Position numbers and translations under genes: made by a program
Origin: an uncultured Muribaculaceae bacterium
GTDB taxonomy: Bacteria > Bacteroidota > Bacteroidia > Bacteroidales > Muribaculaceae
NCBI GenBank assembly: GCA_947627615.1
Contig: CANQWS010000002.1
Location: 62,001 to 126,000 of the forward strand
Direction: 5' to 3'
Length of the DNA stretch: 64,000 nucleotides
Shown here: in pieces, positions 3,821-27,766 of the stretch
Position numbering within the stretch: the first letter of the stretch is position 1
Layout of the letters: the number at the start of each line of letters is the position of its first letter
Notes under the pieces: model-generated
Seen by the model: the letters and a program-made list of their open reading frames with translations, nothing else
Told to the model about the DNA's origin: nothing
The model's database searches: none

Positions 3821-3852
3821 CGGGACACCGGGACACTGGGACAGCGGGACAT
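3821..3852. repeat. GGGACA array, four direct copies at 8-bp period
   Basis: GGGACA starts at 3822, 3830, 3838 and 3846, each followed by two variable bases. This is the most regular member of a family of GGGACA/TGTCCC arrays seen at about eight other places in this window. It lies in the gap between the PepSY-like gene and rpmH. A nearby imperfect inverted repeat (GACCGG ... CCGGTC, 3875-3900) may extend the structure. Confidence 0.8.
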
Positions 3853-3937
3853 CGCCCGGGATAATAGCGCAACGACCGGCTCCATCTGATGGGACCGGTC
3901 ATCGGTAAGGGTTCACAGAAATGTTAGCCCGTAATGC

Positions 3938-4093
3938 TTATTTGCTGGCTATAGAGCAGCTAACAGTGAGGCGCAGACGGCCTTTGGCACGACGGCGGGC
4001 AAGCACCTTGCGGCCATTGGCTGTTGACATACGTTCACGGAATCCATGCTTGTTGACTCTCTTTCTGTTAGAAGGTTGAAATGTTCTTTTCAT
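3938..4093 (-). CDS. rpmH: Ribosomal protein bL34
   Basis: A short reading frame of 51 residues starting [20 protein letters not shown] and continuing [19 protein letters not shown], an unmistakable bL34 signature: basic, conserved over its whole length, part of the large ribosomal subunit. The C-terminal tail ([12 protein letters not shown]) is a little longer than in Proteobacteria, as is usual in Bacteroidota. A strong promoter lies upstream at 4140-4170. No rnpA follows it here, unlike the rpmH-rnpA order of many bacteria. Confidence 0.97.
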
Positions 4094-4139
4094 TGCCGTA
4101 ACTTATTTTTTCGTTTTTGATTATTCACAATTCGGAGTG

Positions 4140-4170
4140 CAAATTTAGGCATTTTTCCCAACACCTGCAA
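4140..4170 (-). promoter_or_regulatory. rpmH promoter
   Basis: On the minus strand TAAATTTG (4140-4147) is a perfect TAnnTTTG -7 box, and TTG (4168-4170) lies exactly 20 bp upstream. This is the canonical Bacteroidota spacing; the -7 box ends 46 bp before the rpmH start codon. Confidence 0.75.
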
Positions 4171-4219
4171 CATTCCGCCCCCCAAATCTGCGGTTCTGCT
4201 CTGAAAAACACTGAAAAAA

Positions 4220-4253
4220 TGTCCCGTCTGTCCCCTGCGTCCCGGCGGGACAG
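4220..4253. repeat. TGTCCC/GGGACA array with inverted arms
   Basis: TGTCCC at 4220 and 4229, GTCCC at 4239, then GGGACA at 4247. The outer CTGTCCC (4228-4234) and GGGACAG (4247-4253) can pair. It lies in the gap between rpmH and the end of mutB and belongs to the dispersed family described in the findings. Confidence 0.75.
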
Positions 4254-4277
4254 CTTTCAGGCCCCTGCCCCAAAGCA

Positions 4278-4310
4278 TCGGCCCGGATACCGCGATGGAC
4301 CCCGGGCCGA
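4278..4310 (-). terminator. Stem-loop downstream of mutB
   Basis: TCGGCCCGG (4278-4286) and CCGGGCCGA (4302-4310) form a perfect 9-bp GC-rich stem with a 15-nt loop, 37 bp beyond the mutB stop codon. There is no clear U tract on the minus strand, so termination activity is inferred from position and stem strength. Confidence 0.5.
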
Positions 4311-4346
4311 TTTATTGTGACACTGATGTCGGTGATTCAGCGGAGC

Positions 4347-6482
<2,136 letters not shown>

Positions 6483-6521
6483 TGTTTGATATTCGATAAT
6501 GGATGGGGTGAAACTGACGGA

Positions 6522-8375
6522 TTATTTGAGAAGACGCTTGTTGAAGTCACGAAGCACATCAAGCACATTGCAGCGTACATGCACGTAATCGTTGATGCCG
6601 AGGGCCTTGAGCTCGTCCATGCAGGCGGGAGCGCCGGCAACCACGAACTCTGCGCGGCCGTTGAGATACTTGTAAGCTTCGGGAGCGAGGGTGGCGTATT
6701 CGTCATCGCTGGAGCAGAGCACAACCACGTCGGCGCCCTTTTCCATAGCGGCATCTATGCCCTGTTCCACGGTATCGAAACCGAGATTGTCAATGATTTC
6801 GTAGCCGGCACAGCCGAAGAAGTTGGTGGAGAACTGTGCGCGGGCCAGACGCATGGCCAGATTGCCTATTGTGAGCATGAACACCTTCGGACGGTTGGAT
6901 GCAGCCTCGGTGGCCAGACGAAGGGCCTCGAAATCGCTTGCAGCACGGGCCACGGGCAGACCGCCTTCGGCCTTTTCGCCCTCATCGCCGTGGTGACAGC
7001 CGCATCCGCAGCCGGCGCCGGTTTCAATCTTGTCGGCGGCCATTTCGTTGATGTTGGGATACTGGTTGGTTCCGAGAAGGATTTCCTTGCGACGGGCCAC
7101 GTCCGTGTGACGTTTCTCCGAAGTCTCGCGCACGGCTTTCTGTATCGAGCCGTCGTTGAGCTGAGCGAGGAAACCGCCGTTGTCCTCCACACCGATGAAC
7201 ACTTTCCAAGCCTGTTCGGCTATGGCCACGGTGAGGGTCTCCACGTAGTAGCTTCCGCCGGCGGGGTCAACCACCTTGTCCAGATGGCTCTCTTCCTTGA
7301 GAAGGAACTGCTGGTTGCGGGCTATGCGCTCCGAGAATTCATCCGGTTTCTTATAAGGAGTGTCGAAGGGGGTGACTGTGATGGAGTCAACGCCTGCCAG
7401 GGCGGCCGACATACATTCGGTCTGGCTGCGGAGCAGGTTCACGTAGGCGTCGTAGATGGTCTGGTTGAAGCGCGAGGTGGCTGCATGCACGGCCATCTTG
7501 CAGTCGGCATCGTCCACGCCGTACTGCTTCACAACCTGCGCCCAGAGCATGCGGGCGGCACGGAATTTGGCAAGCTCCATGAAGTAGTTGCTCGAAACGC
7601 CCATGTTGAATTTGATGCTGCGAGCCACTTCGGCTGCGTCCACGCCCTTGTCAGTGAGCATGGTGAGCCATTCGGCGCCCCAGGTCAGAGCGTAGCCGAG
7701 TTCCTGATAGATGTAGGCGCCGGCGTTGGAGAGCATAACGCTGTCAACGGCGAGCACCTTCAGTCCGGGCACGTCCTTCACGTCGTTGAGCAGCTCCACG
7801 GCCATTGCGGCGATGTCGCCGGGGAATTCGGTGCCGTGCTTGAGGGCCTTGCGGAAGGGATTGAAGTCAATCGAGCCGCGGAATTCCATCTCTGCGCCTG
7901 CGGCCTTGATGTAGTCCACGAGAACCTTTGCGAATGCGAGGGCCTTTTTGGGGCAGCAGTTGAAGTTGAGTTCCACAGCACCCACGGCTATATCTTTGAG
8001 CAGGGTGTCGAGTTCTTCCTTTGTAGCGTCTTTAATACTGAATCCCAGTGAGTTCACGCCTTTATTGAGCACATCGAGGGCAATTTTGTTGGCCTCTTCG
8101 GCGCTGTCGGCAACGATTTCCTGACGGGTGAGCCAGTCATTGTCGGCGCGTGTGCCGCGCACGTAGGGATACTCGCCGGGGAGCGAGTCGGTTGTTTTCA
8201 GATCGGCTATGTCCTCCGCACGGTACATGGGCTGGACATTGAAACCTTCGTTTGTGCGCCAGACCAGTTTCTTTTCAAACGGGGCGCCCTTGAGGTCGGC
8301 CTCTACTTTCGCACGCCATTCTTCAGTGCTGACGGGCGGAAATTGGTCGAACAGTAACTCTTTCTTTTCTGTCAT
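6522..8375 (-). CDS. mutA: Methylmalonyl-CoA mutase, small subunit
   Basis: A protein of 617 residues, homologous to MutB along its length but without the DxHxxG cobalamin motif in its C-terminal Rossmann-like domain, as expected for the non-catalytic partner of the heterodimer. It starts MTEKKELLFDQFPPVSTEEW and precedes mutB by 39 bp. The linker between the barrel and the cobalamin-like domain contains a short cysteine/histidine cluster, CGCGCHH, at residues 456-462 followed by acidic residues. That cluster is not part of the catalytic fold and could bind a metal. Confidence 0.95.
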   Translation of the reverse strand: MTEKKELLFDQFPPVSTEEWRAKVEADLKGAPFEKKLVWRTNEGFNVQPMYRAEDIADLKTTDSLPGEYPYVRGTRADNDWLTRQEIVADSAEEANKIALDVLNKGVNSLGFSIKDATKEELDTLLKDIAVGAVELNFNCCPKKALAFAKVLVDYIKAAGAEMEFRGSIDFNPFRKALKHGTEFPGDIAAMAVELLNDVKDVPGLKVLAVDSVMLSNAGAYIYQELGYALTWGAEWLTMLTDKGVDAAEVARSIKFNMGVSSNYFMELAKFRAARMLWAQVVKQYGVDDADCKMAVHAATSRFNQTIYDAYVNLLRSQTECMSAALAGVDSITVTPFDTPYKKPDEFSERIARNQQFLLKEESHLDKVVDPAGGSYYVETLTVAIAEQAWKVFIGVEDNGGFLAQLNDGSIQKAVRETSEKRHTDVARRKEILLGTNQYPNINEMAADKIETGAGCGCGCHHGDEGEKAEGGLPVARAASDFEALRLATEAASNRPKVFMLTIGNLAMRLARAQFSTNFFGCAGYEIIDNLGFDTVEQGIDAAMEKGADVVVLCSSDDEYATLAPEAYKYLNGRAEFVVAGAPACMDELKALGINDYVHVRCNVLDVLRDFNKRLLK

Positions 8376-8434
8376 GATTAAGGTTAATGTATGGTAATAT
8401 TAATATATTATTGTGTTGTTGCAGATTCGGGTGC

Positions 8435-9313
8435 TCAGACAAATTTCTTTCTGTTAAACATGAATCCCCTGCCGAGATATTTTTCTCTGACCACGGGGTT
8501 CTCGGCCAGCTCTTCCGACGTTCCCTGGAAAAGAATCTTACCGTCGAAGAGCAGATAGGCCCTGTCGGTGATGTTCAGGGTCTCGTTGGCGTTATGGTCG
8601 GTGATGAGGATTCCTATGTTCTTGGCCTTCAGCTTGTGGACCACGGACTGGATGTCCTCCACAGCTATGGGGTCTACTCCGGCGAAAGGTTCGTCGAGCA
8701 TTATGAACTTGGGGTTGATGGCCAGACAGCGGGCTATCTCCGTTCGCCGCCGTTCGCCGCCGGAGAGGCGATCGCCGCAGTTGCGGCGCACTTTCTGGAG
8801 CGAGAATTCCTCTATGAGGGTCTCAAGCTTTTCCTTCTGTTCGGCTTTGGTCAGCGGGGTCATCTCGAGTACGGCGCGGATGTTGTCCTCCACGGTCATT
8901 TTGCGGAAAACGGAGGCTTCCTGCGCCAGATAGCCAATGCCGTTCTGTGCGCGGCGATACACGGGATAGTTCGTCAGGTCCTTGTCGTTGAGGTAGATGC
9001 GGCCCTCGTTGGGGGTGATAAGCCCCACTGTCATATAGAATGTGGTGGTCTTGCCGGCTCCGTTGGGTCCGAGCAGACCCACGATTTCGCCCTGGGTCAC
9101 GTTGATCGACACGTGGTTCACAACGGTTCGGCGGCCGTATTTCTTGACGAGGTTGTCCGTGCGCAGCACCATTTTCTCGGGTTCGCCCTGGGCGGGAACC
9201 GTTTCGGCGACTTCGGTGCTCTCCGCGCCTGTGGAGAGCTCGAAACCGGCTGCGTCGGCCACTTCACGGCGGGCTTCCCCGATGGGGTCTATGTCGGTGT
9301 TCTTGTCAGACAT
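8435..9313 (-). CDS. lptB: LptB-type LPS export ABC transporter ATP-binding protein
   Basis: The ATPase of the LptB2FGC machine that moves lipopolysaccharide from the inner membrane. Walker A (GPNGAGKTT), Q-loop ([18 protein letters not shown]), signature (LSGGERRR), Walker B (FIMLDEPF) and H-loop (LITDH) are intact. I place the start at 9313 (MSDKNTD), which overlaps the udk stop by 8 bp; this gives 292 residues. An internal ATG at 9172 ([13 protein letters not shown]) would give the classic LptB length of about 245, so the first 47 acidic residues are either a genuine extension or untranslated. The permease genes are not nearby. Confidence 0.9.
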
Positions 9314-9959
9314 TTTCGGATTCCGGTTGCTGTGATTTTTTCTGATGCTCCTTGCGCAGACGTCCTTCAATGTAGTCCGTAAGGAGGTTTATGGCCACGG
9401 TGTTGTTGCCGCCCTGAGGCACTATGAGGTCGGCGTAGCGCTTGGAGGGCTCGATGTACATGTTGTGCATCGGTTTGAGCACTTCCTCGTAGCGGTCGAT
9501 GACCATTTTGGGTGTGCGGCCGCGTTCCACGCAGTCGCGGGCTATGACGCGGATGAGGCGGTCGTCGGCATCGGCGTCCACGAACACCTTCACGTCCATC
9601 CTTTTGCGGAGTTCAGGCACTCCGAGCACGAGGATTCCCTCGACTATGACCACGTCGCGGGGCTCCACCCTGACGGTCTCGCTCTGGCGGGTGCAGGTCA
9701 GATAAGAGTACGTGGGCATCTCCACGGCCCGGCCCTGCCGGAGCATGTCGAGATGCTTTTCGAGAAGCGTCCACTCAATGGCGGCGGGCTCGTCGAAGTT
9801 GATTTTGCAGCGCTCTTCCGGCGGAATGTGGCTGGAATCCTTGTAATAAGAGTCCTGAGGCAGCACGGCCACTTCGCCTATGGGCAGACTGTTGATGATT
9901 TTGTTGACCACTGTGGTCTTACCCGAGCCGGTGCCTCCGGCTATACCGATTATTAGCAT
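9306..9959 (-). CDS. udk: Uridine kinase
   Basis: A protein of 217 residues with the uridine/cytidine kinase P-loop at the very N terminus ([12 protein letters not shown]), the substrate-site LPQDSYYKD motif and the [13 protein letters not shown] lid-region motif. It phosphorylates uridine and cytidine with ATP or GTP in pyrimidine salvage. Its 3' end overlaps the lptB start, so the two are translationally coupled although functionally unrelated. The C-terminal tail ([14 protein letters not shown]) is low complexity. Confidence 0.95.
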
Positions 9960-9990
9960 AGTTCTATTTTCAGTGCTTTTAAGGTTGCCA

Positions 9991-9998
9991 CAAAGTTA
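9991..9998 (-). promoter_or_regulatory. Putative -7 box for udk-lptB
   Basis: TAACTTTG on the minus strand matches TAnnTTTG, 31 bp before the udk start codon. No TTG is found at the expected 20-bp distance. Confidence 0.45.
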
Positions 9999-10072
9999 GT
10001 CCATTTTATGCAAAATCCGAAATTATTATCCGTTTTTTGACTCCGGAGCGTGCTTTGGTGCGGAAAAAATCG

Positions 10073-10080
10073 TAGATTTG
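10073..10080 (+). promoter_or_regulatory. Putative -7 box for nfo
   Basis: TAGATTTG matches TAnnTTTG, 37 bp before the nfo start. TTTG at 10054-10057 lies 15 bp upstream, closer than usual. Confidence 0.45.
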
Positions 10081-10117
10081 CCCCGATGTTTCACTTTAAA
10101 GATGATTTTAACAGACT

Positions 10118-10963
10118 ATGAAATATGTAGGAGCCCACGTTTCGACCGGCACGGGCGTCAGTGCCGCGCCCGTCAATGCCCACGAGATTGGCGCGCGGGC
10201 GTTTGCCCTTTTCACCCGCAATCCGTCGCGCTGGCAGTCAAAGCCCATATCGGCCAAGGAGGCGGCGAAGTTCAAGGAGAAATGCGCCGAATTCGGCTAC
10301 ACGGCGGCCCAGATTCTGCCCCACGACAGTTATCTGATCAATCTCGGCTCGCCCGACGAAGAGGGGCTGGCCAAGTCGCGGGCTGCGTTTCTGGACGAGA
10401 TGCGGCGCTGCGAGCAGCTGGGGCTGACAATGCTCAATTTCCACCCGGGGTCGCACCTGCGCCGCATGGAGACCGACGAGTGTCTGGACCGGATAGCCGA
10501 ATCGATCAATCTGGTGCTGGCCGAGACCGAGGGCGTCAGGGCGGTGATTGAGAACACTGCCGGCCAGGGGTCAAATCTGGGATTCACTTTCGGGCAGATA
10601 GCGCGCATTATCGACGGGGTGACGGACAAGGAGCGCGTGGGTGTGTGCATCGATTCGTGCCATGCTTTCGCCGCGGGCTACGGCCTGAGCCGGCGTGAGG
10701 GCTACGAGGCGATGTGGCGGGAGTTTGACCGCGAGATCGGACTGAAATACCTGTCAGGGATGCACGTCAACGATTCAAAGCGGGAGCTTGGCTCACACGT
10801 TGACCGCCACGAGTCGCTGGGCCGAGGCATGATAGGGCCTGATTTCTTCAGCTTCATGATGAACGATGCGCGTCTCGACGGCATTCCCCTGATTCTCGAG
10901 ACTCCTGACGAGAGCCTGTGGCCTCATGAAATCGAGTGGCTCTACTCGCTCGTGGAGAGCTGA
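10118..10963 (+). CDS. nfo: Endonuclease IV (AP endonuclease)
   Basis: A protein of 281 residues, the usual length of the TIM-barrel zinc enzyme that cuts the backbone 5' to abasic sites in base-excision repair. Metal-ligand motifs are present in order: [28 protein letters not shown] and [20 protein letters not shown]. It is a single gene, convergent with the OmpA-type lipoprotein gene and separated from it by a GGGACA array and a strong stem-loop. Confidence 0.96.
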
Positions 10964-10970
10964 AAGGAGC

Positions 10971-11000
10971 GTCCCGGTGTCCCACTGTCCCATTTGTCCA
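10971..11000. repeat. TGTCCC array
   Basis: GTCCC at 10971, TGTCCC at 10978 and 10986, and TGTCC at 10995, a spacing of 8-9 bp. It begins 8 bp after the nfo stop codon and belongs to the dispersed GGGACA/TGTCCC family. Confidence 0.75.
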
Positions 11001-11018
11001 ACTTGCTGAAAATAACGG

Positions 11019-11064
11019 ACGGGCTGCGGAGTGTTCTCTGAGCGAGATTGCCTCCGCGGCCCGT
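11019..11064. terminator. Bidirectional terminator between nfo and the OmpA-type gene
   Basis: ACGGGCTGCGGAG (11019-11031) pairs with CTCCGCGGCCCGT (11052-11064), a 13-bp stem with one G-U pair and a 20-nt loop, between two convergent genes. The right side continues AACGTTGTTATATT. It can serve either direction. Confidence 0.65.
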
Positions 11065-11107
11065 AACGTTGTTATATTCTGAGGTCTTTCGCCTGACCGA
11101 ATGGGAA

Positions 11108-11815
11108 TCAGTTCACGGCGAGAGTGCCGTTTTCAGCGGCCTTGATCATGTTCTGGTCGGCTGTGATGTAGATTTCAACCCTGCGGTTCTGCGCGCGTCC
11201 TTCGGCTGTGTCGTTGGAAGCCACATAGTCCTGCATTGGAAGTCCCTGGGCTGTGATACGGCTGCCTGCCACACCGCTGTTGACGAGGTAGTTGCGCACT
11301 GCGTCGGCACGACCGTCCGATACTCTCTGGTTCACTGCCATGGAGCCGGTGTTGTCGGTGAAGCCGAATACCTGCACGTTGGTCTGCGGGTTGTTGATGA
11401 GGCTGGTTGCGAATTTGGTGAGGTCGGTCTTGGCGCCTGCGCTGAGGGTGGTTCCGTTAGTGGGGAAGAGGATTCCGCCGTTGAATGTCACCTTTATGGC
11501 CTGAAGTCCGTTCTGGTCGGTCACCTGGCTCACTTCGGCCGAGTTGGCGAGCTGCTTCTGGAGTTCCTGCTGCTGCTTGTCCATCTTGCGTCCGATGAGG
11601 GCACCTGCTCCCGCACCTACGGCTGCGCCTATGGCCGAGCCGATTCCTGCGCCTTTGCCGCCGCCTATGAGGGCTCCGATGCCTGCGCCGAGGGCTCCGC
11701 CGCCACCGCCGCCTATGAGGGCGCCCTTACCTGTGTTGTTCATGCTGCCGCAACCTGATGATGCGAGAAGCGAAAGTGCCAGGGCACTGATTACGAATAG
11801 TCTTGATCTTTTCAT
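11108..11815 (-). CDS. OmpA-family lipoprotein with glycine-zipper segment
   Basis: A protein of 235 residues starting MKRSRLFVISALALSLLASSGC, a signal peptide with a lipid-attachment cysteine at residue 22. A glycine-zipper segment (about residues 30-80, GALIGG/GAGIGALIGG repeats) can insert in or span a membrane. The C-terminal OmpA domain (GFTDNTGSMAVNQRVSDGRADAVRNYL) binds peptidoglycan. An upstream extension of the frame to 12025 is rejected because the lipoprotein signal starts here. Likely role: anchoring the outer membrane to the cell wall. Confidence 0.9.
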   Translation of the reverse strand: MKRSRLFVISALALSLLASSGCGSMNNTGKGALIGGGGGGALGAGIGALIGGGKGAGIGSAIGAAVGAGAGALIGRKMDKQQQELQKQLANSAEVSQVTDQNGLQAIKVTFNGGILFPTNGTTLSAGAKTDLTKFATSLINNPQTNVQVFGFTDNTGSMAVNQRVSDGRADAVRNYLVNSGVAGSRITAQGLPMQDYVASNDTAEGRAQNRRVEIYITADQNMIKAAENGTLAVN

Positions 11816-11927
11816 TTCGGTTATGTTTAAAGTTTCACATTCATGAATTAACGCTACATATCCATGCACTCCGCAGCGGGATACGGCATTATTAATATTA
11901 TACAACCAAGAGATTTCTTTTGTTTGG

Positions 11928-11957
11928 TTGCGGTTTACAAAAATATGATTAATTTTG
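11928..11957 (+). promoter_or_regulatory. Promoter of the EamA-type transporter
   Basis: TAATTTTG (11950-11957) preceded by TTG (11928-11930) with a 19-bp spacer, ending 24 bp before the start codon at 11982. Confidence 0.7.
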
Positions 11958-11981
11958 CAGACGACAAAATTTGCATGAAAA

Positions 11982-12908: not shown

Positions 12909-12934
12909 CGGTCTGTCACTGCCGCAGAATAAAG

Positions 12935-13483: not shown

Positions 13484-13490
13484 GATGCTG

Positions 13491-13498
13491 CAAAGTTA
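13491..13498 (-). promoter_or_regulatory. Putative -7 box for the alkylation repair-like gene
   Basis: TAACTTTG on the minus strand, only 7 bp upstream of the start codon at 13483, which would give a nearly leaderless mRNA. No good -33 element is visible at the normal distance. Confidence 0.4.
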
Positions 13499-13552
13499 CG
13501 AATTATTAACGGAATGGTAAACAGTCAGGGCGGCGGGAATGGCTCCGCGCCA

Positions 13553-13583
13553 TTGCATAATTCAGCCAATATGTCTAAATTTG
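13553..13583 (+). promoter_or_regulatory. Promoter of the LysM protein operon
   Basis: TAAATTTG (13576-13583) with TTG (13553-13555) 20 bp upstream; the -7 box ends 32 bp before the start codon. Confidence 0.7.
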
Positions 13584-13615
13584 CATGATATTTACGGACC
13601 AACCAATAGCATCTG

Positions 13616-15634
13616 ATGATGATTTCTAACAGACTCAAGCGATATGTGCATGGCACTCTGATGATTGCAGCCGCGCTGACGGCGTTTTCGTCGGAACTGA
13701 CCGACCTTCCGGTAAAGACTGTCAAGGGCGTCACCTACCACTACTATATAGTGAAGAAAAGCGAGACCATCTATGCCCTGTGCAAGCGTTTCGGCGTGAG
13801 CGAGGCGCAGCTGGTGAAGCTCAACCCCGACGTGGCCGCCGGACTTAAGGCCGGTCAGGAGATTCTGCTGCTTCCGTCAAAAGCCGCGCCGGCGCCCAAG
13901 GCGGCACCTGCCGCGAGCGCTTCAGGAGCCGGAGCAACGGCCGGCGACAACACCGTCAACGGCCATTACGCCGTGAAGAAGAACGACACCGCTTTCGGCA
14001 TCAGCAAGCGGTTCGGGCTGACTCTGGAGGAATTCTACGGGCTTAACCCGGGTGTGCGCGACGGAGTGAAAGAGGGCCAGATTGTGATTGTGAGCGGCGC
14101 CTCGAAGAGCGCGGGAAACGCGGCTGAGGCCAATAGTCCCGTGTCCCGGACGGGGACGGGCGGGACAACTGTCCCAACTGCCCAGACTGCCGCCGGCGCC
14201 GGACGCACCCACGTCATAGGCGACTACGAGACCCTCTATCAGATTGCGCGCGACAACGGTCTGCCCCTCTCCGACCTGCTCAAGGCCAATCCCGGACTCG
14301 ACCCCGCCCGCTACGAGGCAGGCACCGTGATAAACCTCCCCGCCGGAGCCAAGCCGGCAGCCGCACCCGCCTCACCTGCGGCGCAGTCCGGCTCGACCTA
14401 CACCGTGAAGGCCGGCGACACGTTCTACGGCATTGCCACGCGCCACGGCATTGAGGTCAACAGCCTCTACGAGGCCAACCCCGACATTGACATACTCCGC
14501 GAAGGCACCGTGATCCAGCTCCCGCAGGGAGTGACCGCCGTGGAGGAACAGACCGTGAACCCGGCCAACGCCCCGGCGCGGGTTACAATAGCCGTGATGC
14601 TCCCCTTTGACCTTGAGAACAAGGGCAAGCACAACCGGAGCGCCACGGAATTCTACCGCGGAGTGCTCATGGCCGTCGACACCATGCGCCACGCCGGACA
14701 ACCCATACGCATCCTGACCTACGACACCCGCTCGTCATCGGCCACCGTGGCCGACATCCTGGCGCGGCCCGAAATGGCCGAGGCTCAGGCCATCATAGCC
14801 CCCGACAACATGGACCAGCTCTCGGAAATCAACGCCTTCGGGCGCACGAGGGGCATAGCCGTGGTGAACCCGTTCAACAACCGAGACTCGGCCTATCTGA
14901 CCAACCCCGCTGCCATGCAGCTGGCCCTGCCCCGCGACGAGATGTATGCCCGCGCGGCCAGGGACTTCACCGCCTCGTTCCAGGACTTCACCCCGGTGTT
15001 TCTCATCAGCAACGACGGCCGCAAGGACAAGCTGGAGTTCGTTGACGTGGTCAAAGCCGAGCTCAACCGCGCCGGACGCACGTTCAAGGAGATAGGCTAT
15101 TCGGGCACGCTGTCGGCCGACGTGCTGCGGCAGCACCTTGCCTCCGACGGCCGCTACGCCTTCCTGCCCGCATCGTCGCACCGCGAGGAATTCGACAAGG
15201 TGGCTCCCGCCATCCAGGAGGTCAAGGACGCCCGAGACTTCAAGGACGACATAGTGGTGTGGGGCTATCCGGAATGGCTCGCCAACCGTCAGGCCTACAG
15301 CAAGATGCACGAGCTTGACTGCTACATCTACTCCCGCACCGACCTGCCGGAGAAATTCACCACCGAGAGCGTTGACGACGCCTACGAGAAATGGTTCGGC
15401 CCCGAAATGATGGCCAACTACCCGCGCCGCTACTACATGGGCTTCGACATAGGCATGTACCTCATAAAGGCCCTGAGCGTGAACGGCGGCGACTTCTCCA
15501 CCTACTCGCCCTATCTCTCCGGAATCACCATACCCCTCTCCATGCGCCGCGTTCCCGGCGCTGGATGGTACAACAACGAGCTCCTGATGATCAATCTGGC
15601 CCCGGGCGAGACCATCAGCAAGCGCACCATCTGA
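13616..15634 (+). CDS. Envelope protein with four LysM domains and a periplasmic-binding-protein-like domain
   Basis: A protein of 672 residues. After a signal peptide (to about residue 25) come four LysM modules, at about 41-88, 117-161, 198-243 and 261-304, each of the form YxVKKxDTxxGIxxRFG ... LxxxNP ... I.LP, joined by Ala/Pro-rich linkers. From about residue 321 (RVTIAVMLPFDLENKGKHNRSATEFYRGVLMAVD) the chain resembles a type I periplasmic binding fold. LysM modules bind peptidoglycan, so it is probably a wall-attached periplasmic protein. The linker between modules 2 and 3 (residues 171-190) is encoded by a GGGACA/TGTCCC array. A small beta-barrel gene follows 41 bp later. Confidence 0.88.
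   Translation: MMISNRLKRYVHGTLMIAAALTAFSSELTDLPVKTVKGVTYHYYIVKKSETIYALCKRFGVSEAQLVKLNPDVAAGLKAGQEILLLPSKAAPAPKAAPAASASGAGATAGDNTVNGHYAVKKNDTAFGISKRFGLTLEEFYGLNPGVRDGVKEGQIVIVSGASKSAGNAAEANSPVSRTGTGGTTVPTAQTAAGAGRTHVIGDYETLYQIARDNGLPLSDLLKANPGLDPARYEAGTVINLPAGAKPAAAPASPAAQSGSTYTVKAGDTFYGIATRHGIEVNSLYEANPDIDILREGTVIQLPQGVTAVEEQTVNPANAPARVTIAVMLPFDLENKGKHNRSATEFYRGVLMAVDTMRHAGQPIRILTYDTRSSSATVADILARPEMAEAQAIIAPDNMDQLSEINAFGRTRGIAVVNPFNNRDSAYLTNPAAMQLALPRDEMYARAARDFTASFQDFTPVFLISNDGRKDKLEFVDVVKAELNRAGRTFKEIGYSGTLSADVLRQHLASDGRYAFLPASSHREEFDKVAPAIQEVKDARDFKDDIVVWGYPEWLANRQAYSKMHELDCYIYSRTDLPEKFTTESVDDAYEKWFGPEMMANYPRRYYMGFDIGMYLIKALSVNGGDFSTYSPYLSGITIPLSMRRVPGAGWYNNELLMINLAPGETISKRTI
14136..14175. 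repeat. GGGACA/TGTCCC array inside the LysM gene
   Basis: GTCCC (14136), TGTCCC (14142), GGGACA (14162) and TGTCCC (14170) fall within the reading frame and encode a Ser/Thr/Gly-rich stretch between LysM modules 2 and 3. This is a tolerant linker, so an insertion here would cost little. Confidence 0.7.
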
Positions 15635-16374: not shown

Positions 16375-16412
16375 CTGTCCCACTGTCCCAGAGGTGGAAC
16401 AAATGGGACAGT
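16375..16412. repeat. TGTCCC/GGGACA array forming a 9-bp hairpin
   Basis: TGTCCC at 16376 and 16384, then GGGACA at 16405. ACTGTCCCA (16382-16390) and TGGGACAGT (16404-16412) are exact reverse complements with a 13-nt loop. It starts 4 bp after the beta-barrel stop codon, so it may also act as its terminator. Confidence 0.8.
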
Positions 16413-16435
16413 ACGTTCAGCCAGCAATCCTGCTC

Positions 16436-16500
16436 TGATACTGTTACCGGAGACTTTGCTCTGATACTGTTACCGGATTATTTGCCTTGATACTGTTACC
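16436..16500. repeat. Three exact 13-bp direct repeats at 26-bp period
   Basis: TGATACTGTTACC occurs at 16436-16448, 16462-16474 and 16488-16500. The two 13-bp spacers also resemble each other (GGAgacTTTGCtc and GGAttaTTTGCct), so the real unit is about 26 bp. It is not the GGGACA family. Confidence 0.85.
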
Positions 16501-16692: not shown

Positions 16693-16735
16693 CTGTCCCA
16701 CTGTCCCAGGGTGAGACAAGTGGGACACCGGGACA
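16693..16735. repeat. TGTCCC/GGGACA array, two copies in each orientation
   Basis: TGTCCC at 16694 and 16702 (8-bp period), then GGGACA at 16722 and 16730 (8-bp period), giving two facing half-arrays. It lies just upstream of the ABC-F promoter. Confidence 0.8.
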
Positions 16736-16759
16736 TACCGGCCCGGAATCCGCAGCCTC

Positions 16760-16790: not shown

Positions 16791-16822
16791 CACCCTGAAA
16801 AAATTTAAGGTAAAAAAGATAA

Positions 16823-18911
<2,089 letters not shown>

Positions 18912-18912
<1 letters not shown>

Positions 18913-18966
18913 TTGGCTGTTCTGGAAATAATGCGTAAATTTACAACAAAATTTCCACCTCCGCAA
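18912..18966. promoter_or_regulatory. Divergent promoters sharing one palindromic -7 box
   Basis: GTAAATTTAC (18935-18944) is a perfect palindrome, so TAAATTTA reads as a -7 box on both strands (one mismatch to TAnnTTTG). TTTG (18912-18915) lies 20 bp away on the plus side for holA, and TTG on the minus strand (18964-18966) lies 20 bp away for the HsdR-N-like gene. The two polymerase footprints would exclude each other. Confidence 0.6.
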
Positions 18967-18980
18967 TTCCCCCTTAAGCC

Positions 18981-20021: not shown

Positions 20022-20031
20022 ACCACCAATC

Positions 20032-20085
20032 AGCTATTATAGCTATCTTAGCTAAATTAGCTATTTTAGCTAACTTAGCTAAAAC
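20032..20085. repeat. Six tandem 9-bp units with palindromic TAGCTA core
   Basis: AGCTA starts at 20032, 20041, 20050, 20059, 20068 and 20077, each followed by four A/T/C bases; most junctions read TTAGCTAA, an 8-bp palindrome. The array lies between the convergent holA and hppA genes, immediately before a GC-rich stem-loop. Confidence 0.85.
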
Positions 20086-20088
20086 ACA

Positions 20089-20119
20089 GCGGACTCCCCC
20101 GTCAACCGGAGGAATCCGC
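20089..20119. terminator. Terminator between holA and hppA
   Basis: GCGGACTCCCCCG pairs imperfectly with CCGGAGGAATCCGC around a TCAA loop (20089-20119). Convergent neighbours on both sides make a bidirectional terminator likely. Confidence 0.55.
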
Positions 20120-20150
20120 CGCTAATCAGTTTAGGTCTTTTGCCGGAGTG

Positions 20151-22346
<2,196 letters not shown>

Positions 22347-22393
22347 TGCGATTTACTGAATTTTGGAATTGAATTTAAGGATAAAACTGTCGG

Positions 22394-22424
22394 TAAAGTT
22401 ACGCAAATCCGCGCACACGGCCAA
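22394..22424 (-). promoter_or_regulatory. hppA promoter
   Basis: On the minus strand TAACTTTA (22394-22401, one mismatch) with TTG (22422-22424) 20 bp upstream; the -7 box lies 47 bp before the start codon. Confidence 0.5.
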
Positions 22425-22451
22425 GCCCTTCGGCCGGAATCAGGGAGAGAA

Positions 22452-23753
22452 TCAGAGAATATGTTCCAGAAGCTTCTGCATCTTCAGCGCAATGGCCTCG
22501 GTGCAGAGATTGCCTATGGAGCCTGTGTGGGTGTGGTTCACGCTGCGGTCAGGCACGTACTCGCCGTGCTGCACCTGCATGCCAACGGTGCGGTAGGCCT
22601 CGCGGAACGGCATTCCGCCGAGCGTCAGGCGGTTCACGTCCTCCACGGTGAACAGATAGTCATAGCGCGGGTCGGAGAGAATGTCGCGGTTCACGCGGAT
22701 GTGGTGCAGCATGAAAGTGCACATGTCCAGACACCCGGCTATCTCCGTCGTGGCGGGGAATATGATGTCCTTGAGCAGCTGCAGGTCGCGGTTGTAGCCC
22801 AGCGGCAGGTTGGCGGTGAGCAGCGCTATCTCGTTGGGCACGCTCTGCAGGCGGTTGCACTTGCCGCGCATGATCTCGAACACGTCGGGGTTCTTCTTGT
22901 GGGGCATGATTGACGAGCCGGTGGTGTACTCGTCGGGAAACGAGATGAAACCGAAGTTCTGGCACATGTACATGCACACGTCCATGGCGAAATGGCCCAG
23001 CGTGGAGGCTATGGAGGCTATGGCCATGGCGGCGGCCCGCTCCGTCTTTCCGCGGCTCATCTGGGCGGCCACAACGTTGTAGTGTAACGTGGCGAATCCC
23101 AGCTCGCGGGTGGTCATCTCACGGTCGAGCGGGAACGACGAGCCGTAGCCCGCGGCCGAGCCGAGCGGATTCTGGTCGGCGGTATCGTAAGCCGCCACAA
23201 GCATCCTCACGTCATCGACAAGGCTCTCGGCGTAGGCCCCGAACCACAGTCCGAACGACGACGGCATGGCCACCTGCAGATGCGTGTAGCCCGGCATGAG
23301 CACATCCTTGTGCTGTTCGCTCAGAGACTGGAGCATGTCGAACGTACGCTTCACGGCGCGGGCCACGTTCTTCAGCTCGTCACGCATGAACAGCTTCAGG
23401 TCAACGAGCACCTGGTCGTTGCGCGAACGCCCCGAATGGATTTTCTTGCCTGTGTCGCCCAGACGCTCCGTCAGCATGAACTCCACCTGCGAGTGCACGT
23501 CCTCAATTCCCGGCTCTATGACGAACTCGCCGCGGTCAATCACGTCCATAATGCGCTGCAGCTCAGCGGTGAGCGTCTGCAACTCGGCGGCCGTCAGCAG
23601 CCCTATGCTCTCAAGCATCTTTATGTGGGCCATGGAGCCCTGCACGTCGTAACGCGCCAGACGCAGGTCAAGCACGCGGTCCTGGCCCACGGTGAATTGT
23701 TCAATCATTTTATCAGGCTCGAAGTCCTTGCTCCAGAGTTTGGATGGTTTCAT
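22452..23753 (-). CDS. argH: Argininosuccinate lyase
   Basis: A protein of 433 residues that splits argininosuccinate into arginine and fumarate, the last step of arginine synthesis. The superfamily signature TTGSSIMPHKKNPDVFE, with the flexible serine loop and catalytic serine, is intact, as are SGRSRNDQV (residues about 105-115) and HTHTGSIGN near the C terminus. It is the last gene of the arginine operon; its start overlaps the argE stop by 4 bp. Confidence 0.96.
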   Translation of the reverse strand: MKPSKLWSKDFEPDKMIEQFTVGQDRVLDLRLARYDVQGSMAHIKMLESIGLLTAAELQTLTAELQRIMDVIDRGEFVIEPGIEDVHSQVEFMLTERLGDTGKKIHSGRSRNDQVLVDLKLFMRDELKNVARAVKRTFDMLQSLSEQHKDVLMPGYTHLQVAMPSSFGLWFGAYAESLVDDVRMLVAAYDTADQNPLGSAAGYGSSFPLDREMTTRELGFATLHYNVVAAQMSRGKTERAAAMAIASIASTLGHFAMDVCMYMCQNFGFISFPDEYTTGSSIMPHKKNPDVFEIMRGKCNRLQSVPNEIALLTANLPLGYNRDLQLLKDIIFPATTEIAGCLDMCTFMLHHIRVNRDILSDPRYDYLFTVEDVNRLTLGGMPFREAYRTVGMQVQHGEYVPDRSVNHTHTGSIGNLCTEAIALKMQKLLEHIL

Positions 23754-24844
23754 TGTCGTAGAAGGTCAGAGAGGTTGTTAAGATATGAGATATAATCGTT
23801 TATGGCCGATTCGATTTCGCTCGTGAGCACGAATTCATCGGCGCTGTGGCTTCGTGATGACTGCCCCGGACCCATCTTCACGGCCGGACAGTGGGACAGT
23901 TGTCCCGCCTGTCCCGGGTGGGACAGCTGGGACATGTCAGAGGTGGTGGGCGACACGAAAGGTGTTTTTCCGAGCGCCACAGCCGCCTGCACCAGCGGAT
24001 GCGACACTTCCAGAGCCGAAGCCCTGACACGGAACGAGCGGGGCACCGCTTCCGATTCAATGGCCTGCTGCAGCATGGCGGCTGTCTCTTCGTTGGAATA
24101 GGCGTCGGTGGTGCGCACGTCGACCACCCACCGGCACTCGTCGGGAACCACATTGTGCTGCCTTCCGGCCTGAATCTGCGTGACCTGCAGGCCGACAGGG
24201 CCGAGCAGCTCGCTCTGGCGGGGGAAAGTGAACGCCCGCAGCCGCTCAATGTCGGCCATGGCCTTGTAGATGGCATTGACGCCCTCGTTGCGGGCGGCAT
24301 GTCCGGTCACTCCGCGGCTTGTGCAGTCAAGCACCAGCAGCCCGCGCTCGCCTATGGCCGGCTGCATCCCCGTAGGCTCCCCCACCACGGCCATGTCCGG
24401 CCCGTAGCCCAGTTCACGGACGTGAGGCAGAAAGGCTCGCATTCCGTTCTCGCCGGTCACCTCTTCCTCGGCCGTAATGGCCAGCATCAGGTTGAAAGGC
24501 AGCGCAGCTCCGCGCATGCGGCGGAACGTCTCGGTCAGGGCCACTACGGACGCTCCCGCATCGTTGCTGCCCAGGCCGTAGAGGCGGTCGCCCTCCGTTA
24601 CCGGCTCGAAAGGGTTGCGGGTATAGGCATCCGACGGGCGCACCGTGTCATGATGCGAATTGAGCATGAGCGTTAGCCGCGAGGCATCGAACCCCTCGCT
24701 GACAGCCCACACATTGTTCCGGAAACGCCTGGGACCGAAACCCATGCCGGCAAATGCGTCGAAGAGCAGTGCGGCCGTGGCGTCCTCGCTGCGGGAGAAC
24801 GACGGCGTTGAAATAAGTTGCCGGAGAAGTTCTACAGGGCTCAT
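23750..24844 (-). CDS. argE: M20-family N-acyl-ornithine deacylase (ArgE type) with repeat-encoded insertion
   Basis: A protein of 364 residues of the M20 metallopeptidase family. Metal and catalytic motifs are LNSHHDTVRP, GSNDAGASVVAL, ITAEEEVTGENG and the C-terminal RSHSADEF. By position in this operon it should remove the succinyl (or acetyl) group to give ornithine or citrulline. Between FVSPTTSD and PAVKMGPG, normally joined by only a few residues, lie residues 304-319 (MSQLSHPGQAGQLSHC), encoded by a GGGACA/TGTCCC array. The insertion is in frame and next to an active-site motif. The start overlaps the argB stop by 4 bp. Confidence 0.88.
   Translation of the reverse strand: MSPVELLRQLISTPSFSRSEDATAALLFDAFAGMGFGPRRFRNNVWAVSEGFDASRLTLMLNSHHDTVRPSDAYTRNPFEPVTEGDRLYGLGSNDAGASVVALTETFRRMRGAALPFNLMLAITAEEEVTGENGMRAFLPHVRELGYGPDMAVVGEPTGMQPAIGERGLLVLDCTSRGVTGHAARNEGVNAIYKAMADIERLRAFTFPRQSELLGPVGLQVTQIQAGRQHNVVPDECRWVVDVRTTDAYSNEETAAMLQQAIESEAVPRSFRVRASALEVSHPLVQAAVALGKTPFVSPTTSDMSQLSHPGQAGQLSHCPAVKMGPGQSSRSHSADEFVLTSEIESAINDYISYLNNLSDLLRQ
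23885..23935. repeat. GGGACA/TGTCCC array inside argE
   Basis: GGACA (23886), GGGACA (23893), TGTCCC (23901 and 23910) and GGGACA (23920 and 23929): six units in about 50 bp, spacing 7-10, in both orientations. It lies wholly within the argE reading frame without breaking it. Confidence 0.85.
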
Positions 24845-25632
24845 TCCGAGGGTTTTCTTATGGTGGTGCCCGACATCGGAGCCAGAAGGCTGGATGCGGA
24901 CTTTATTATCACGTGCCTCACGCCGTTGGCAATGGCGGCGAAGGCATTGTCAATCTTCGGTATCATTCCGCCGCTAACGGCTCCGCACTCCTTGAGCTGC
25001 AGATAGTTGGCAGGCGTAATTTCGGGTATAACGGAACTATCGTCGGCCGGGTCGGCAAGCACTCCGGGCTTCTCGAAGCAGTAGATCAGGTCAGTAGCCG
25101 TTATTCTGGAAGCCGCGCATGCCACTGCCTGGGCCACGGTGTCGGCATTGCAGTTGAGCAGCTGGCCGTGGCCGTCGTGGGTTATGGCGCAGAAAACCGG
25201 CACAATATCGGACTTCAGCAGCATCGCTATCACGCTCTCCGACACCGAATCGGCCAGAATGTCGCCCACATAGCCGAAATCCACAGGCTGGGCCGGACGT
25301 CTGACGGCACGAATCACATCGGCATCGGCTCCCGTCAGCCCTATGCAGTCACAGCCAAGTGCCTGCAGCTGCGACACTATGCGCTTGTTGACCAGGCCGG
25401 CATAGACCATGGTGACCACGTCGAGAGTCTCGCGGTCCGTGACCCTGCGGCCGTCGATCATGCAGGTCTCTATCCCCAGGGCCGCGCTGAGCCGCGTTGC
25501 CTCGCACCCGCCGCCATGCACCAGAATCTTAGGCTTCTCCAGACGCGCGAAATCGCTCAGGAACATTTTCAGGGCCTCGGGGTCGTTGACCACGTTGCCG
25601 CCAATCTTGACTACTTTTATGGTTCTTCTCAT
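24841..25632 (-). CDS. argB: N-acyl-glutamate kinase (ArgB), probably acting on N-succinylglutamate
   Basis: A protein of 263 residues of the amino acid kinase family. KIGGNVV near the N terminus is the phosphate-binding loop, HGGGCEATRLSAALG binds the acyl-glutamate, and the later NCNADTVAQAVACAASRITATDLIYCFEKPGVL matches the nucleotide-binding region. It phosphorylates the gamma-carboxylate of the N-acylated glutamate. Because the operon encodes the Bacteroidales succinyl-type transcarbamylase, succinylglutamate is the likelier substrate. It overlaps both neighbours by 4 bp. Confidence 0.93.
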   Translation of the reverse strand: MRRTIKVVKIGGNVVNDPEALKMFLSDFARLEKPKILVHGGGCEATRLSAALGIETCMIDGRRVTDRETLDVVTMVYAGLVNKRIVSQLQALGCDCIGLTGADADVIRAVRRPAQPVDFGYVGDILADSVSESVIAMLLKSDIVPVFCAITHDGHGQLLNCNADTVAQAVACAASRITATDLIYCFEKPGVLADPADDSSVIPEITPANYLQLKECGAVSGGMIPKIDNAFAAIANGVRHVIIKSASSLLAPMSGTTIRKPSE

Positions 25633-26582
25633 AGTGACTCCAACAGGCGCTTAATGACGGTCTGGGCTGAAATCTCACGGTTGGCGGCCTCGGGAATCAC
25701 AATGCTGCGTTCGGATTCAATGACGTCGTCCGTCACAATCATGTTGCGTCTCACGGGAAGGCAGTGCATGAAGAAAGCATTGTCGGTCAGGCCCATCTTT
25801 TCGGCGTCAACGGTCCACGAACGGTCCGTCGACAGCACCTTGCCGTAATTCGGATCAGCGTAGGCCGACCAGTTCTTGGCATAGACGAAATCGGCGCCCT
25901 CCAGGGCCTTGCGCTGGTCATATTCTATGACAGCACGGCCGGTGAACGTGGGGTCAAGCTCATAGCCATGCGGATGGGTGATCACAAACTCGTAATCGGT
26001 CATGTTCATCCATTCGGCAAACGAGTTGGGCACGGCCTGAGGCAACGCCTTGGGATGCGGAGCCCATGTCATGACCACTTTCGGGCGCTCCTTGGTCTTG
26101 TATTCCTCTATGGTGATGAGGTCGGCGAAGCTCTGCAGCGGATGCCGGGTAGCTGCCTCCATGCTGAACACCGGACGGCCCGAATGGCGGATGAACTGCT
26201 CGATGACACGTTCCTCGTAATCGGCCTTCTTGTCGGTCAGCCCGGCGAAGGAGCGCACGCCAATCAGGTCGCAGTACGAGCCCATGACCGGTATGGCCTC
26301 AAGCAGATGCTCGGCCTTGTCGCCGTCCATCAGCACCCCGCGCTCGGTCTCGAGCTTCCATGCGCCCTGGTTCACATCGAGCACCATCACGTTCATGCCC
26401 AGGTTCATGGCCGCTTTCTGTGTGCTCAGACGCGTACGCAGCGAAGAGTTGAAAAATATCATCAGAAGCGTGCGGTTACGCCCCAGTTCAGTGTAAGCGA
26501 ATCGGTTGGCTTTTATGTCGAGGGCCTCTTTCACGGCCTCGCGCCAAGGGCCTATGTCGGCCGCGCAGGTAAATTTCTTCAT
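25629..26582 (-). CDS. argF': N-succinyl-ornithine transcarbamylase (ArgF-prime)
   Basis: A protein of 317 residues very similar, as I recall it, to the Bacteroides fragilis enzyme that carbamoylates N-succinyl-L-ornithine rather than ornithine. Carbamoyl-phosphate motifs FFNSSLRTRLS and FSMEAATRHPLQSFADL, and the HCLPVRRNM segment, are present. The residue known to set succinyl versus acetyl preference (Pro90 in B. fragilis, Glu92 in the Xanthomonas acetyl enzyme) aligns with Ala90 here (GDKAEHL). Published swaps indicate that small residues at this site favour the succinyl substrate, so the succinyl assignment holds but the residue is unusual. Confidence 0.93.
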   Translation of the reverse strand: MKKFTCAADIGPWREAVKEALDIKANRFAYTELGRNRTLLMIFFNSSLRTRLSTQKAAMNLGMNVMVLDVNQGAWKLETERGVLMDGDKAEHLLEAIPVMGSYCDLIGVRSFAGLTDKKADYEERVIEQFIRHSGRPVFSMEAATRHPLQSFADLITIEEYKTKERPKVVMTWAPHPKALPQAVPNSFAEWMNMTDYEFVITHPHGYELDPTFTGRAVIEYDQRKALEGADFVYAKNWSAYADPNYGKVLSTDRSWTVDAEKMGLTDNAFFMHCLPVRRNMIVTDDVIESERSIVIPEAANREISAQTVIKRLLESL

Positions 26583-27766
26583 TTGTTCCGGAGTAATTCA
26601 GTCAGTGCGTTGATAAATACGTCGGCCTGACCGGTGGTGATGCCCAGAGCCGGAAGCAGACGAACGGTGGAGGCACCGGCCCCACCCGTGAATATTTTCT
26701 TTTCAAACAGCAGGCGCTTACGCAGTTCCGAGCCTGAGCCTTCGACATCGAACCCGATCATCAGTCCGCGTCCGCGCACGTCGAGCAGCGGGAGTGTCCC
26801 ACCCTGTCCATTTTGTCCCGCCCCCGGGACTGCGGGACAGCGGGACAATGCCGACAGCCGCTCAAGCAGGTATTCGCCGGTGCGGCGTGCGTTCTCCATC
26901 AGATTCTCGCTCTCCATGACATCAAGCACGGCTATTGCGGCCGCACATGCCAGATGGTTGCCGCCGAAAGTGGTTCCGAGCATGCCCTTGCGGGCCTCTA
27001 TGGCCGGAGAGATCAGCACGGCCCCCATCGGAAATCCGTTGGCTATGCCTTTGGCGCAGGTTATCAGGTCGGGCCTGATACCGTTATACTGATGGGCGAA
27101 GAACTTGCCCGTGCGGCCGTAACCGCTCTGGATTTCATCGGCAATGAGCAGAGTGCCGTATTTTTTTGTCAGCTCGCGCAGGGCCTTCATGAATTCGTCG
27201 GACGGAACCCTGATGCCGGCCACGCCCTGGATTCCTTCTATGATAGCCGCCGCGAACTCGCCCGTCGAGAGCAGCCGCTCGGCCTCGGAAATGTCATCAA
27301 GCGGGCAGAAGACCACCTTGTCGGTAGCGTTGAACGGCGACACTATGGCCGGATTGTCGGTTGCCGCCACAGCTCCGGATGTGCGTCCGTGGAAAGCCTT
27401 GCTGAAAGCCAGTATGCGGCTGCGGCCCGTGACGAACGAGGCGAGCTTCATGGCGTTCTCGTTGGCCTCGGCCCCTGAATTGCACAGAAACAGCCGGTAA
27501 TCCTCGTAGCCCGAAGCCTTGCCGAGCTTTTCGGCCAGAGTCTGCTGCAGTGAATTGCGCACTGAATTGGAGTAGAATCCGAGCTTCGACACCTGCTCGG
27601 CTATGGCGCTCACATACTGCGGATGAGCATGGCCTATGGAGATGACGGCATGGCCGCCGTAGAGGTCCAGATAACGGGTGCCGTCGGCGGTGAACACATA
27701 GCTGCCCTCTCCGCGCACCGGCTCTATATCGTAAAGCGAATAAACGTCAAACAGTTCCATATTCAA
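26579..27766 (-). CDS. argD: N-acyl-ornithine aminotransferase (ArgD type) with repeat-encoded insertion
   Basis: A protein of 395 residues, a class III PLP aminotransferase. Landmarks are CNSGAEANENAMKLA, AFHGRTSGAVAAT, LLIADEIQSGYGRTGKFFAHQ (the aspartate that holds PLP) and the Schiff-base lysine in ITCAKGIANGFPMGA. It makes N-acyl-ornithine from the semialdehyde. Before the conserved DVRGRGLMIGF motif there are about 19 unusual residues (about 307-325, SRCPAVPGAGQNGQGGTLPL), encoded by a GGGACA/TGTCCC array. Overlap with argF-prime is 4 bp. Confidence 0.9.
   Translation of the reverse strand: MNMELFDVYSLYDIEPVRGEGSYVFTADGTRYLDLYGGHAVISIGHAHPQYVSAIAEQVSKLGFYSNSVRNSLQQTLAEKLGKASGYEDYRLFLCNSGAEANENAMKLASFVTGRSRILAFSKAFHGRTSGAVAATDNPAIVSPFNATDKVVFCPLDDISEAERLLSTGEFAAAIIEGIQGVAGIRVPSDEFMKALRELTKKYGTLLIADEIQSGYGRTGKFFAHQYNGIRPDLITCAKGIANGFPMGAVLISPAIEARKGMLGTTFGGNHLACAAAIAVLDVMESENLMENARRTGEYLLERLSALSRCPAVPGAGQNGQGGTLPLLDVRGRGLMIGFDVEGSGSELRKRLLFEKKIFTGGAGASTVRLLPALGITTGQADVFINALTELLRNK
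26794..26848. repeat. TGTCCC/GGGACA array inside argD
   Basis: TGTCCC at 26795 and 26814 with TGTCC at 26805, then GGGAC at 26826 and GGGACA at 26834 and 26842. It is a two-sided array with inverted halves of 8-10 bp period, in frame within argD. Confidence 0.85.

Follow-up and report, generated by a model that had tools for sequence, protein, structure and literature searches.

Introduction

The Rep initiators of Staphylococcus aureus pathogenicity islands (SaPI) and of the staphylococcal cassette chromosome mec (SCCmec) act at an origin that lies directly downstream of the rep gene and contains iterons, which are bound by the C-terminal part of Rep (PMC7581432, sections consulted). For the integrative mobilizable elements of Bacteroides, replication of the excised form has never been studied, according to the consulted sections of a review (PMC5704250), and repetitive extragenic palindromic (REP) elements have been described within coding sequences as well (PMC3733652, excerpt). 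Here we analyze short arrays of the hexamer GGGACA and its complement TGTCCC in a 64,000-nucleotide stretch (hereafter the window) of an uncultured Muribaculaceae bacterium (GCA_947627615.1; 3.36 Mb, 118 contigs; handle G000), corresponding to positions 62,001-126,000 of contig C2 (CANQWS010000002.1, 152 kb). We propose, with a probability of about 0.6, that a Bacteroidales mobile replicon is the source of these arrays: they would be its iteron-type origin sequences, scattered in the vicinity of an integrated replication module made up of an AAA_25 and a DUF6371 gene.

A literature search by title, in which subscription journals were mostly uncovered, showed, among the papers listed, none that ties DUF6371, GGGACA/TGTCCC and iterons to this subject, and a search of titles and the beginnings of abstracts showed, among those listed, none on zone-confined hexamer arrays in Bacteroidales.

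Results

GGGACA/TGTCCC arrays and their distribution on contig C2

A preliminary interpretation of the window made from its letters alone (the sequence-only reading) had listed eight arrays, ascribed to their units an 8-9 bp rhythm and judged their clustering to be beyond chance for a hexamer. All eight are present, with exact units starting 1-8 bp from where they had been placed, and same-strand units within them are mostly spaced by 8-9 bp. The whole window holds 50 GGGACA/TGTCCC hexamers. Its positions 3000-33000 account for 37, compared to a mean of 16.5 (maximum 28) in shuffled sequences, and for 11 same-strand pairs at 7-10 bp, where 300 dinucleotide shuffles gave 0.017 on average and never more than 1; this bears out the claim of non-random clustering. 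The reversed sequence of the same region, used as a control, yields 10 hexamers and no pairs. Over the whole window, GGGACA ranks first among 2016 non-palindromic hexamers for same-strand pairs (11 pairs), and the best unrelated hexamer by this count, AGCTAA, reaches 4.

The usual inverted array in this genome reads TGTCCC-NN-TGTCCC, often about 14 nt with degenerate units, and then GGGACA-NN-GGGACA, with inner lengths that vary widely. The neighbor of a perfect GGGACA unit is itself perfect in 52 cases and has a single mismatch in 14 (worse units were left uncounted), and the two-base spacers between units are GC (8), CC (7), GT (3), CT (1) and CA (1). The suggestion that many arrays carry halves in both orientations and can fold applies to six inverted window arrays, for which single-strand folding is better than in shuffles to a varying degree (z -1.4 to -4.1), and not to the one-sided arrays at 3822 and 10978, which fold no better than shuffles (z -0.5 and +0.7). 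A search of window positions 3000-33000 against Rfam (E up to 0.5) returned a single match, at chance level, which is located at 20041-20091 and outside all eight arrays. By eye only, (GGGACANN)4 fits the G-quadruplex pattern G3N5.

The field of arrays is wider than the eight window sites first described, reaching left of the window and spanning C2:26,862 to 88,847. Exact GGGACANNGGGACA sites fall almost entirely (20 of the 21 in the genome) within 55 kb, C2:33,779-88,847, and the reversed pattern, searched as a control, has no match in the whole genome. When pairs with 1-4 bp spacers are counted by hand across the whole genome, 31 of 45 lie within C2:26,862-88,847 (62 kb). The comparison of density with expectation that had been proposed as a check thus gives values far above those expected, in one region and not genome-wide.

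A putative replication module within the array zone

Near the middle of this zone, about 8-10 kb left of the window, lies a gene pair (C2:51,962-54,059) that encodes an AAA_25 helicase (gene at C2:51,962-52,963) followed by a Zn-ribbon/DUF6371 protein. The AAA_25 protein is annotated as a primase/helicase by PHROG and likely carries a C-terminal helix-turn-helix (HTH) domain, as judged from profile matches to Pfam HTH_38 (20.7 bits) and to PHROG phrog_5497 (E 1.1e-7); the DUF6371/Zn-ribbon protein is probably a primase. An array (C2:52976-53016) sits between the two genes and a further one lies ahead of the pair, at 51631. Because the genes flanking the pair are 2.5 kb apart in the window genome, and their alignments are only about 0.2 kb apart in congener G024 and about 0.1 kb apart in congener G029, the pair was most likely inserted relative to these two congeners. 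The gene pair alone is seen, with no integrase or relaxase noted beside it.

A second sequence connects the window to this module. In the 653 kb of this genome searched, the 14-mer CTGATACTGTTACC has four occurrences when up to one mismatch is allowed: one lies immediately upstream of the AAA_25 gene, and the other three lie at window positions 16435-16500, flanked by the arrays at 16376 and 16694. Since CTGATACTGTTACC is present at both places besides the GGGACA arrays, the window site and the module have two unrelated cis sequences in common. A search of 729 kb of congener sequence found no copy of the 14-mer.

Arrays at the ends of putative initiator genes in mobile elements

Relatives of both module proteins are found on plasmids of Bacteroides, Phocaeicola and Butyricimonas and in viral contigs, and one plasmid relative is annotated next to the Tn4555 TnpC (NZ_CP103154.1). 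Nine of the mobile-element records retrieved include an AAA_25 homolog in the part read (L357, L361, L362, L365, L366, L378, L384, L385 and L386) and represent about five distinct elements; in all nine, a hexamer array lies at the end of the homolog or up to about 200 bp from it. L357, L362 and L384 carry one element type and L365, L366 and L385 another; L355 and L356 are the contigs of L365 and L366. The array hexamer is GGGACA in eight records and GTTCAA in L378; L386, a partial homolog with 31% identity, shows three one-strand GGGACA units only. Relative to helicase identity, GGGACA is seen at 52%, GTTCAA at 43% (L378) and a GGGACA type again at 31% (L386). In L357, from B. fragilis, the array lies within the annotated helicase gene and encodes its C-terminal tail, constituting a further in-frame case. 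This array matches a chromosomal copy in genome G063, described below, with 83% identity over 64 bp (E 7e-11), and has no match in the 729 kb of congener sequence.

Among DUF6371 genes with a DUF3987 partner, L358 carries a CTGAAA array. None of 20 viral DUF6371 loci shows an array after shuffling. Plasmid records H7, H8, H9 and H11 (with their doubles H13, H15, H16 and H18) stand outside the junction survey, which covers H10/H14 on the DUF6371 side only. A single-protein search of viral_contigs with the DUF6371 protein of the window genome returned no relative; relatives were found by alignment-based search. In the window genome, a position at or just after a putative initiator gene holds for the module's own array and not for the scattered copies.

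Hexamer arrays also follow mobile genes of a different family. A triple array is present in 57 viral contigs, and ten large open reading frames (ORFs) beside it, picked for size, comprise seven VapE-like proteins, two that are mainly DUF5906 and one portal protein; ten further, mostly smaller proteins comprise one D5/DUF5906 protein, two terminases and seven without a Pfam match. L050 and L076 are one contig. To remove selection by array, VapE-like loci were then gathered by protein alone. Among the best 80 of 589 (L275-L354), 62 show a cluster in which one hexamer occurs five or more times within 160 bp, compared to 2 of 80 after shuffling, and 55 of these 62 clusters, by hand count, lie up to 300 bp after the match end. 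The hexamers differ by element, many being of the GNNACA kind by eye, including TTGACA (L291 and L292), and GGGACA is near the gene in one of the 80 (L283, whose contig is also that of L158 in the first set). Congener G031 has a VapE-like gene followed, after about 40 bp, by GGGACA repeats whose halves are separated by an AT-rich stretch; a single-protein search of viral_contigs with this protein returned no relative, and an alignment-based search did. These VapE loci are independent support for hexamer arrays after mobile helicase-primase genes. No VapE match was found in the 653 kb of the window genome searched or in the G063 or G104 sequence searched.

Occurrence of the arrays in relatives

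The triple array is found in 3 of 397 genomes of the family: the window genome (7 matches), G063, from another genus (9 matches), and G104, from a third genus (1 match). One or two GGGACANNGGGACA-type pairs are present in 9 of 60 relatives. The array sites are not conserved in relatives, which argues against ancient arrays held at identical positions, the result that would have spoken against mobility in the sequence-only reading.

In G063, every one of the 83 pairs falls on one of 7 contigs that total 275 kb, out of about 130, and about 46 GGGACA array copies occur in one part of the genome. These palindromic copies measure about 50-60 bp, are 71-95% similar where pieces of them align and are intergenic in 40 of 47 cases, and some end in TTCAGGCATAA, a flank in common with G104. 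Generic hexamer scans, which excluded low-complexity hexamers and arrays below a set unit number, revealed other arrays of like build in G063: TTGACA and TTCTCA, mainly on contigs C17 and C58, where they interleave with GGGACA arrays, and CTCTGAT, repeated every 9 bp, on ten contigs including C125. Nearest arrays belong to the same family in 48 of 60 cases (24.3 on average and at most 43 after permutation), in a sample that is not random because part of the contigs were picked for their GGGACA content. A separate repeat of about 48 bp (C81:166-213) is found on many G063 contigs (C1, C8, C10, C20, C70, C113 and others), in contrast to the arrays, which are confined to a zone. In G104, contigs C50, C86, C103, C105 and C137 carry a GACTGTCCCA hairpin and then a second array about 57-80 bp on.

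The zone in the window genome coincides with a peak of GC content at third codon positions (GC3). At C2:31,000-95,000, of which window positions 1-33,000 form the right half, the GC3 of ordinary genes rises up to 0.83 per 5 kb, whereas 348 genes of the other contigs sampled average 0.67. A GC3 above 0.8 is observed in 16 of 48 genes inside the zone, in none of the 68 genes in the rest of C2 and in 9 of the 348 on other sampled contigs; orthologs of several of the peak genes have a GC3 near 0.45 in G024. The G063 array contigs show no such peak, so that it is not a necessary companion of the arrays. The G063 and window-genome zones both hold gyrA, lytB and a neighboring gene in the parts compared (for the window genome, in part). 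A common ancestral zone was considered and discarded, marker order being scrambled across five genomes.

Gene context of the arrays and adjoining repeats

On C2:26,862-94,350, 18 array places were recorded, 11 called intergenic (6 of them between convergent genes) and 7 genic. Two genic calls were corrected: the place at 52976 is intergenic on reading the sequence, and that at 94350 (window 32350) is ordinary coding sequence. The latter, a ninth cluster in the window (32350-32412, in a HisZ-like gene) that was outside the original list, was rejected as conserved coding sequence without an insertion. The window arrays are collected in Table 1.

The statement that arrays occur both between genes and in frame within them stands for the intergenic arrays and for two genes that could be compared with homologs, encoding an M20 peptidase and a class-III aminotransferase. 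The M20 peptidase, which is closest to proteins of Paramuribaculum metagenome-assembled genomes (64-66% identity), has 9 extra residues at the array, where all 7 homolog rows shown (6 distinct contigs) have a gap of 9-10 residues; in the aminotransferase, about 17 residues are extra with respect to the 7 rows of homologs shown (again from 6 distinct contigs). On these alignments, both arrays are in-frame insertions, absent from the homologs compared, which answers the proposed check of homologous sites with and without the array.

Table 1. GGGACA/TGTCCC arrays and associated 14-mer units in the window (window coordinates; + and - in the first column give unit orientation in order).
Feature	Position	Strand	Units	Context	Fold z
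Array ++++	3822..3851	+	3822/3830/3838/3846, exactly 8 bp apart	Intergenic; 0.04 kb downstream of ATTGG/CCAAT-type repeat	
Array --+	4220..4252	.	4220/4229 (-), 4247 (+)	Intergenic	-1.8
Array --	10970..10991	-	10978/10986 (-), degenerate CGTCCC 8 bp before	15 bp past gene end	
Array -+-	14142..14175	.	14142 (-), 14162 (+), 14170 (-)	Within LysM-protein gene 13616-15634	
Array --+	16376..16410	.	16376/16384 (-), 16405 (+)	Intergenic	-4.1
Three units with CTGATACTGTTACC	16435..16500	+	26 bp apart	14-mer also just upstream of AAA_25 gene (C2:51900)	
Array --++	16694..16735	.	16694/16702 (-), 16722/16730 (+)	Intergenic	
Array +--++	23893..23934	.	23893 (+), 23901/23910 (-), 23920/23929 (+)	Within M20-peptidase gene 23750-24844 (-)	
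Array --++	26795..26847	.	26795/26814 (-), 26834/26842 (+)	Within class-III aminotransferase gene 26579-27766 (-)	

Other short repeats were observed in the same genome. ATTGG/CCAAT-type repeats with a period of about 9-10 bp directly adjoin GGGACA arrays at C2:26900, 47257 and 55507 and at window positions 3780-3815. A TTAGCT family with a 9-bp period is present at window positions 20028-20083 (C2:82,048), C1:167878, C20:160 and C20:58921; its exact pairs occur at four places only in the genome, three of them at contig ends (the C1 end and both C20 ends), and the search returned 12 matches compared to 6 in the reversed control.

Discussion

By analogy with SaPI Rep, the C-terminal part of the initiator would bind inverted sets of GGGACA units with a spacing of 8-9 bp, and the bound AAA_25 initiator would load a helicase and start local replication; copies would then spread by in-situ re-replication with template switching, the route we prefer, or by local gene conversion. 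We infer binding, origin activity and this local route of spread alike, and the overall picture suggests that a mobile element can seed its own origin signals into its chromosomal neighborhood. Several results weigh against the proposed origin of the arrays. On the G063 or G104 sequence searched, including the G063 array contigs, neither AAA_25 nor DUF6371 had a relative at E up to 1, once the pair of the window genome itself and one chance-level match are disregarded. The HTH_38 match lies below the curated cut-off of 27 bits, the array cores within the window genome are dissimilar to one another, and CTGATACTGTTACC is absent from the 12 mobile-element loci checked. Junction arrays are absent from plasmids L359 and L360, which have a DUF3987 partner, from L363, and from 15 of the 20 viral DUF6371 loci, most of which are without an AAA_25 partner.

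The three explanations offered by the sequence-only reading, a REP-like mobile repeat, a protein-binding array and a slippage product, fared differently, so that it is supported in part. The putative protein-binding array is the best supported of the three, because arrays of the same hexamer stand at the junction of the replication gene pair in independent mobile elements. Mobility is supported in a restricted sense, in that the in-frame insertions are absent from homologs and presence is patchy between species. Its broader form, in which REP or bacterial interspersed mosaic element (BIME)-like palindromic repeats are moved by a REP-associated tyrosine transposase (RAYT, a Y1 transposase) or a similar enzyme and have no origin function, seems to us improbable. 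The G063 copies do have the length, palindromic build, mutual similarity and largely intergenic location of such repeats, and the presence of REP elements in coding regions (PMC3733652, excerpt) would accommodate the genic arrays. The search for a REP-associated transposase gene, however, gave no match to PF01797 in G063, which has about 46 copies and the clearest palindromes, compared to 2 in the window genome and 4 in G104; since the copies are also confined to a zone, the RAYT version is unsupported, and it leaves the junction arrays of the replication module unexplained. Slippage taken alone likewise fails to account for the link to replication genes. A fuller version of it, in which a local hot zone of mutation or recombination generates short repeats by slippage and fold-back template switching without the involvement of any element, is in our view quite unlikely. 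It would fit the coincidence of the zone with the GC3 peak, the presence of ATGTCGCAGATGTC at the array site in some M20 homologs as a possible seed, and the adjoining of several arrays to other short repeats, but it does not predict the same hexamer at the junctions of independent replication modules, the G063 array contigs have no GC3 peak, and neighboring units are mostly perfect while their spacers vary.

The limitation of the arrays to one part of the chromosome in both the window genome and G063, amid scrambled gene surroundings, is also what would be expected of chromosome-organizing sites for a host protein, similar to matS or parS and confined to one domain. We regard this as improbable too, given that triple arrays are present in just 3 of 397 family genomes. 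More specific candidates of this kind were also rejected. For a parS/ParB centromere, parS-like sites lie on C5, C71 and C72 of the window genome and on C79 of G063, and not on the array contigs named; for a chromosomal origin, dnaA lies on C48 of the window genome, away from the arrays, although in G063 it is on an array contig (C123); for a replication terminus, dif searches gave no convincing site (one pattern was too loose) and strand-skew estimates are confounded by gene orientation.

The iteron-type origin reading can be extended into a more speculative scenario, which we hold to be doubtful as a whole. A captured module would have painted its neighborhood with origin iterons, and repeated local firing and repair, through escape or run-off replication, would have copied arrays into intergenic sites and, in frame, into genes, leaving the GC3 peak behind. 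In further species, other modules would have marked different chromosomal regions with hexamers of their own, and those of G063 (GGGACA, TTGACA/TTCTCA and CTCTGAT) would represent element-specific iteron codes. Extra iterons hinder iteron plasmids by titration, and the chromosomal arrays may in the same manner hinder incoming replicons of the same type.

If the arrays are indeed iteron-type origin sequences, they indicate where the origin acting in cis lies in a class of Bacteroides mobilizable elements, and they show that such arrays are able to extend across a zone of the chromosome and enter genes. It would then become testable whether iterons in the chromosome impede replicons that come in, and whether re-replication of a local region increases the GC content of a bacterial chromosome. 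A catalogue of VapE-locus hexamers against the DNA-binding part of the corresponding proteins could yield a recognition code.

Among described repeats, the arrays can be likened, by description only, to BrickBuilt of P. gingivalis, reportedly a minisatellite borne by a miniature inverted-repeat transposable element (MITE), with tandem, dispersed repeats partly in genes. They resemble REP/BIME sequences (PMC3733652, excerpt) in being palindromic, dispersed and partly within genes, and differ from them in that the window arrays are not tied to a RAYT and are confined to a zone. With the Tn4555-type integrative mobilizable elements of Bacteroides (NZ_CP103154.1; PMC5704250, sections consulted) they have in common a GGGACA array where an AAA ATPase gene meets a DUF6371 gene, whereas the window genome shows the gene pair without a noted integrase or relaxase, at 52% identity. 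The VapE-like/DUF5906 primase-helicase replicons of viral contigs also have a hexamer array soon after the gene, but their hexamer is usually not GGGACA and VapE is missing from the window-genome sequence searched. The iteron origins of SaPI and SCCmec Rep (PMC7581432, sections consulted) likewise consist of short repeats directly after a mobile helicase-initiator gene, the repeat being element-specific there and perhaps here, and binding by the C-terminal part would be expected here by analogy; in contrast to those systems, the genes are AAA_25 and DUF6371 instead of SaPI Rep, and many arrays without such genes extend over 60 kb of chromosome and into coding sequences.

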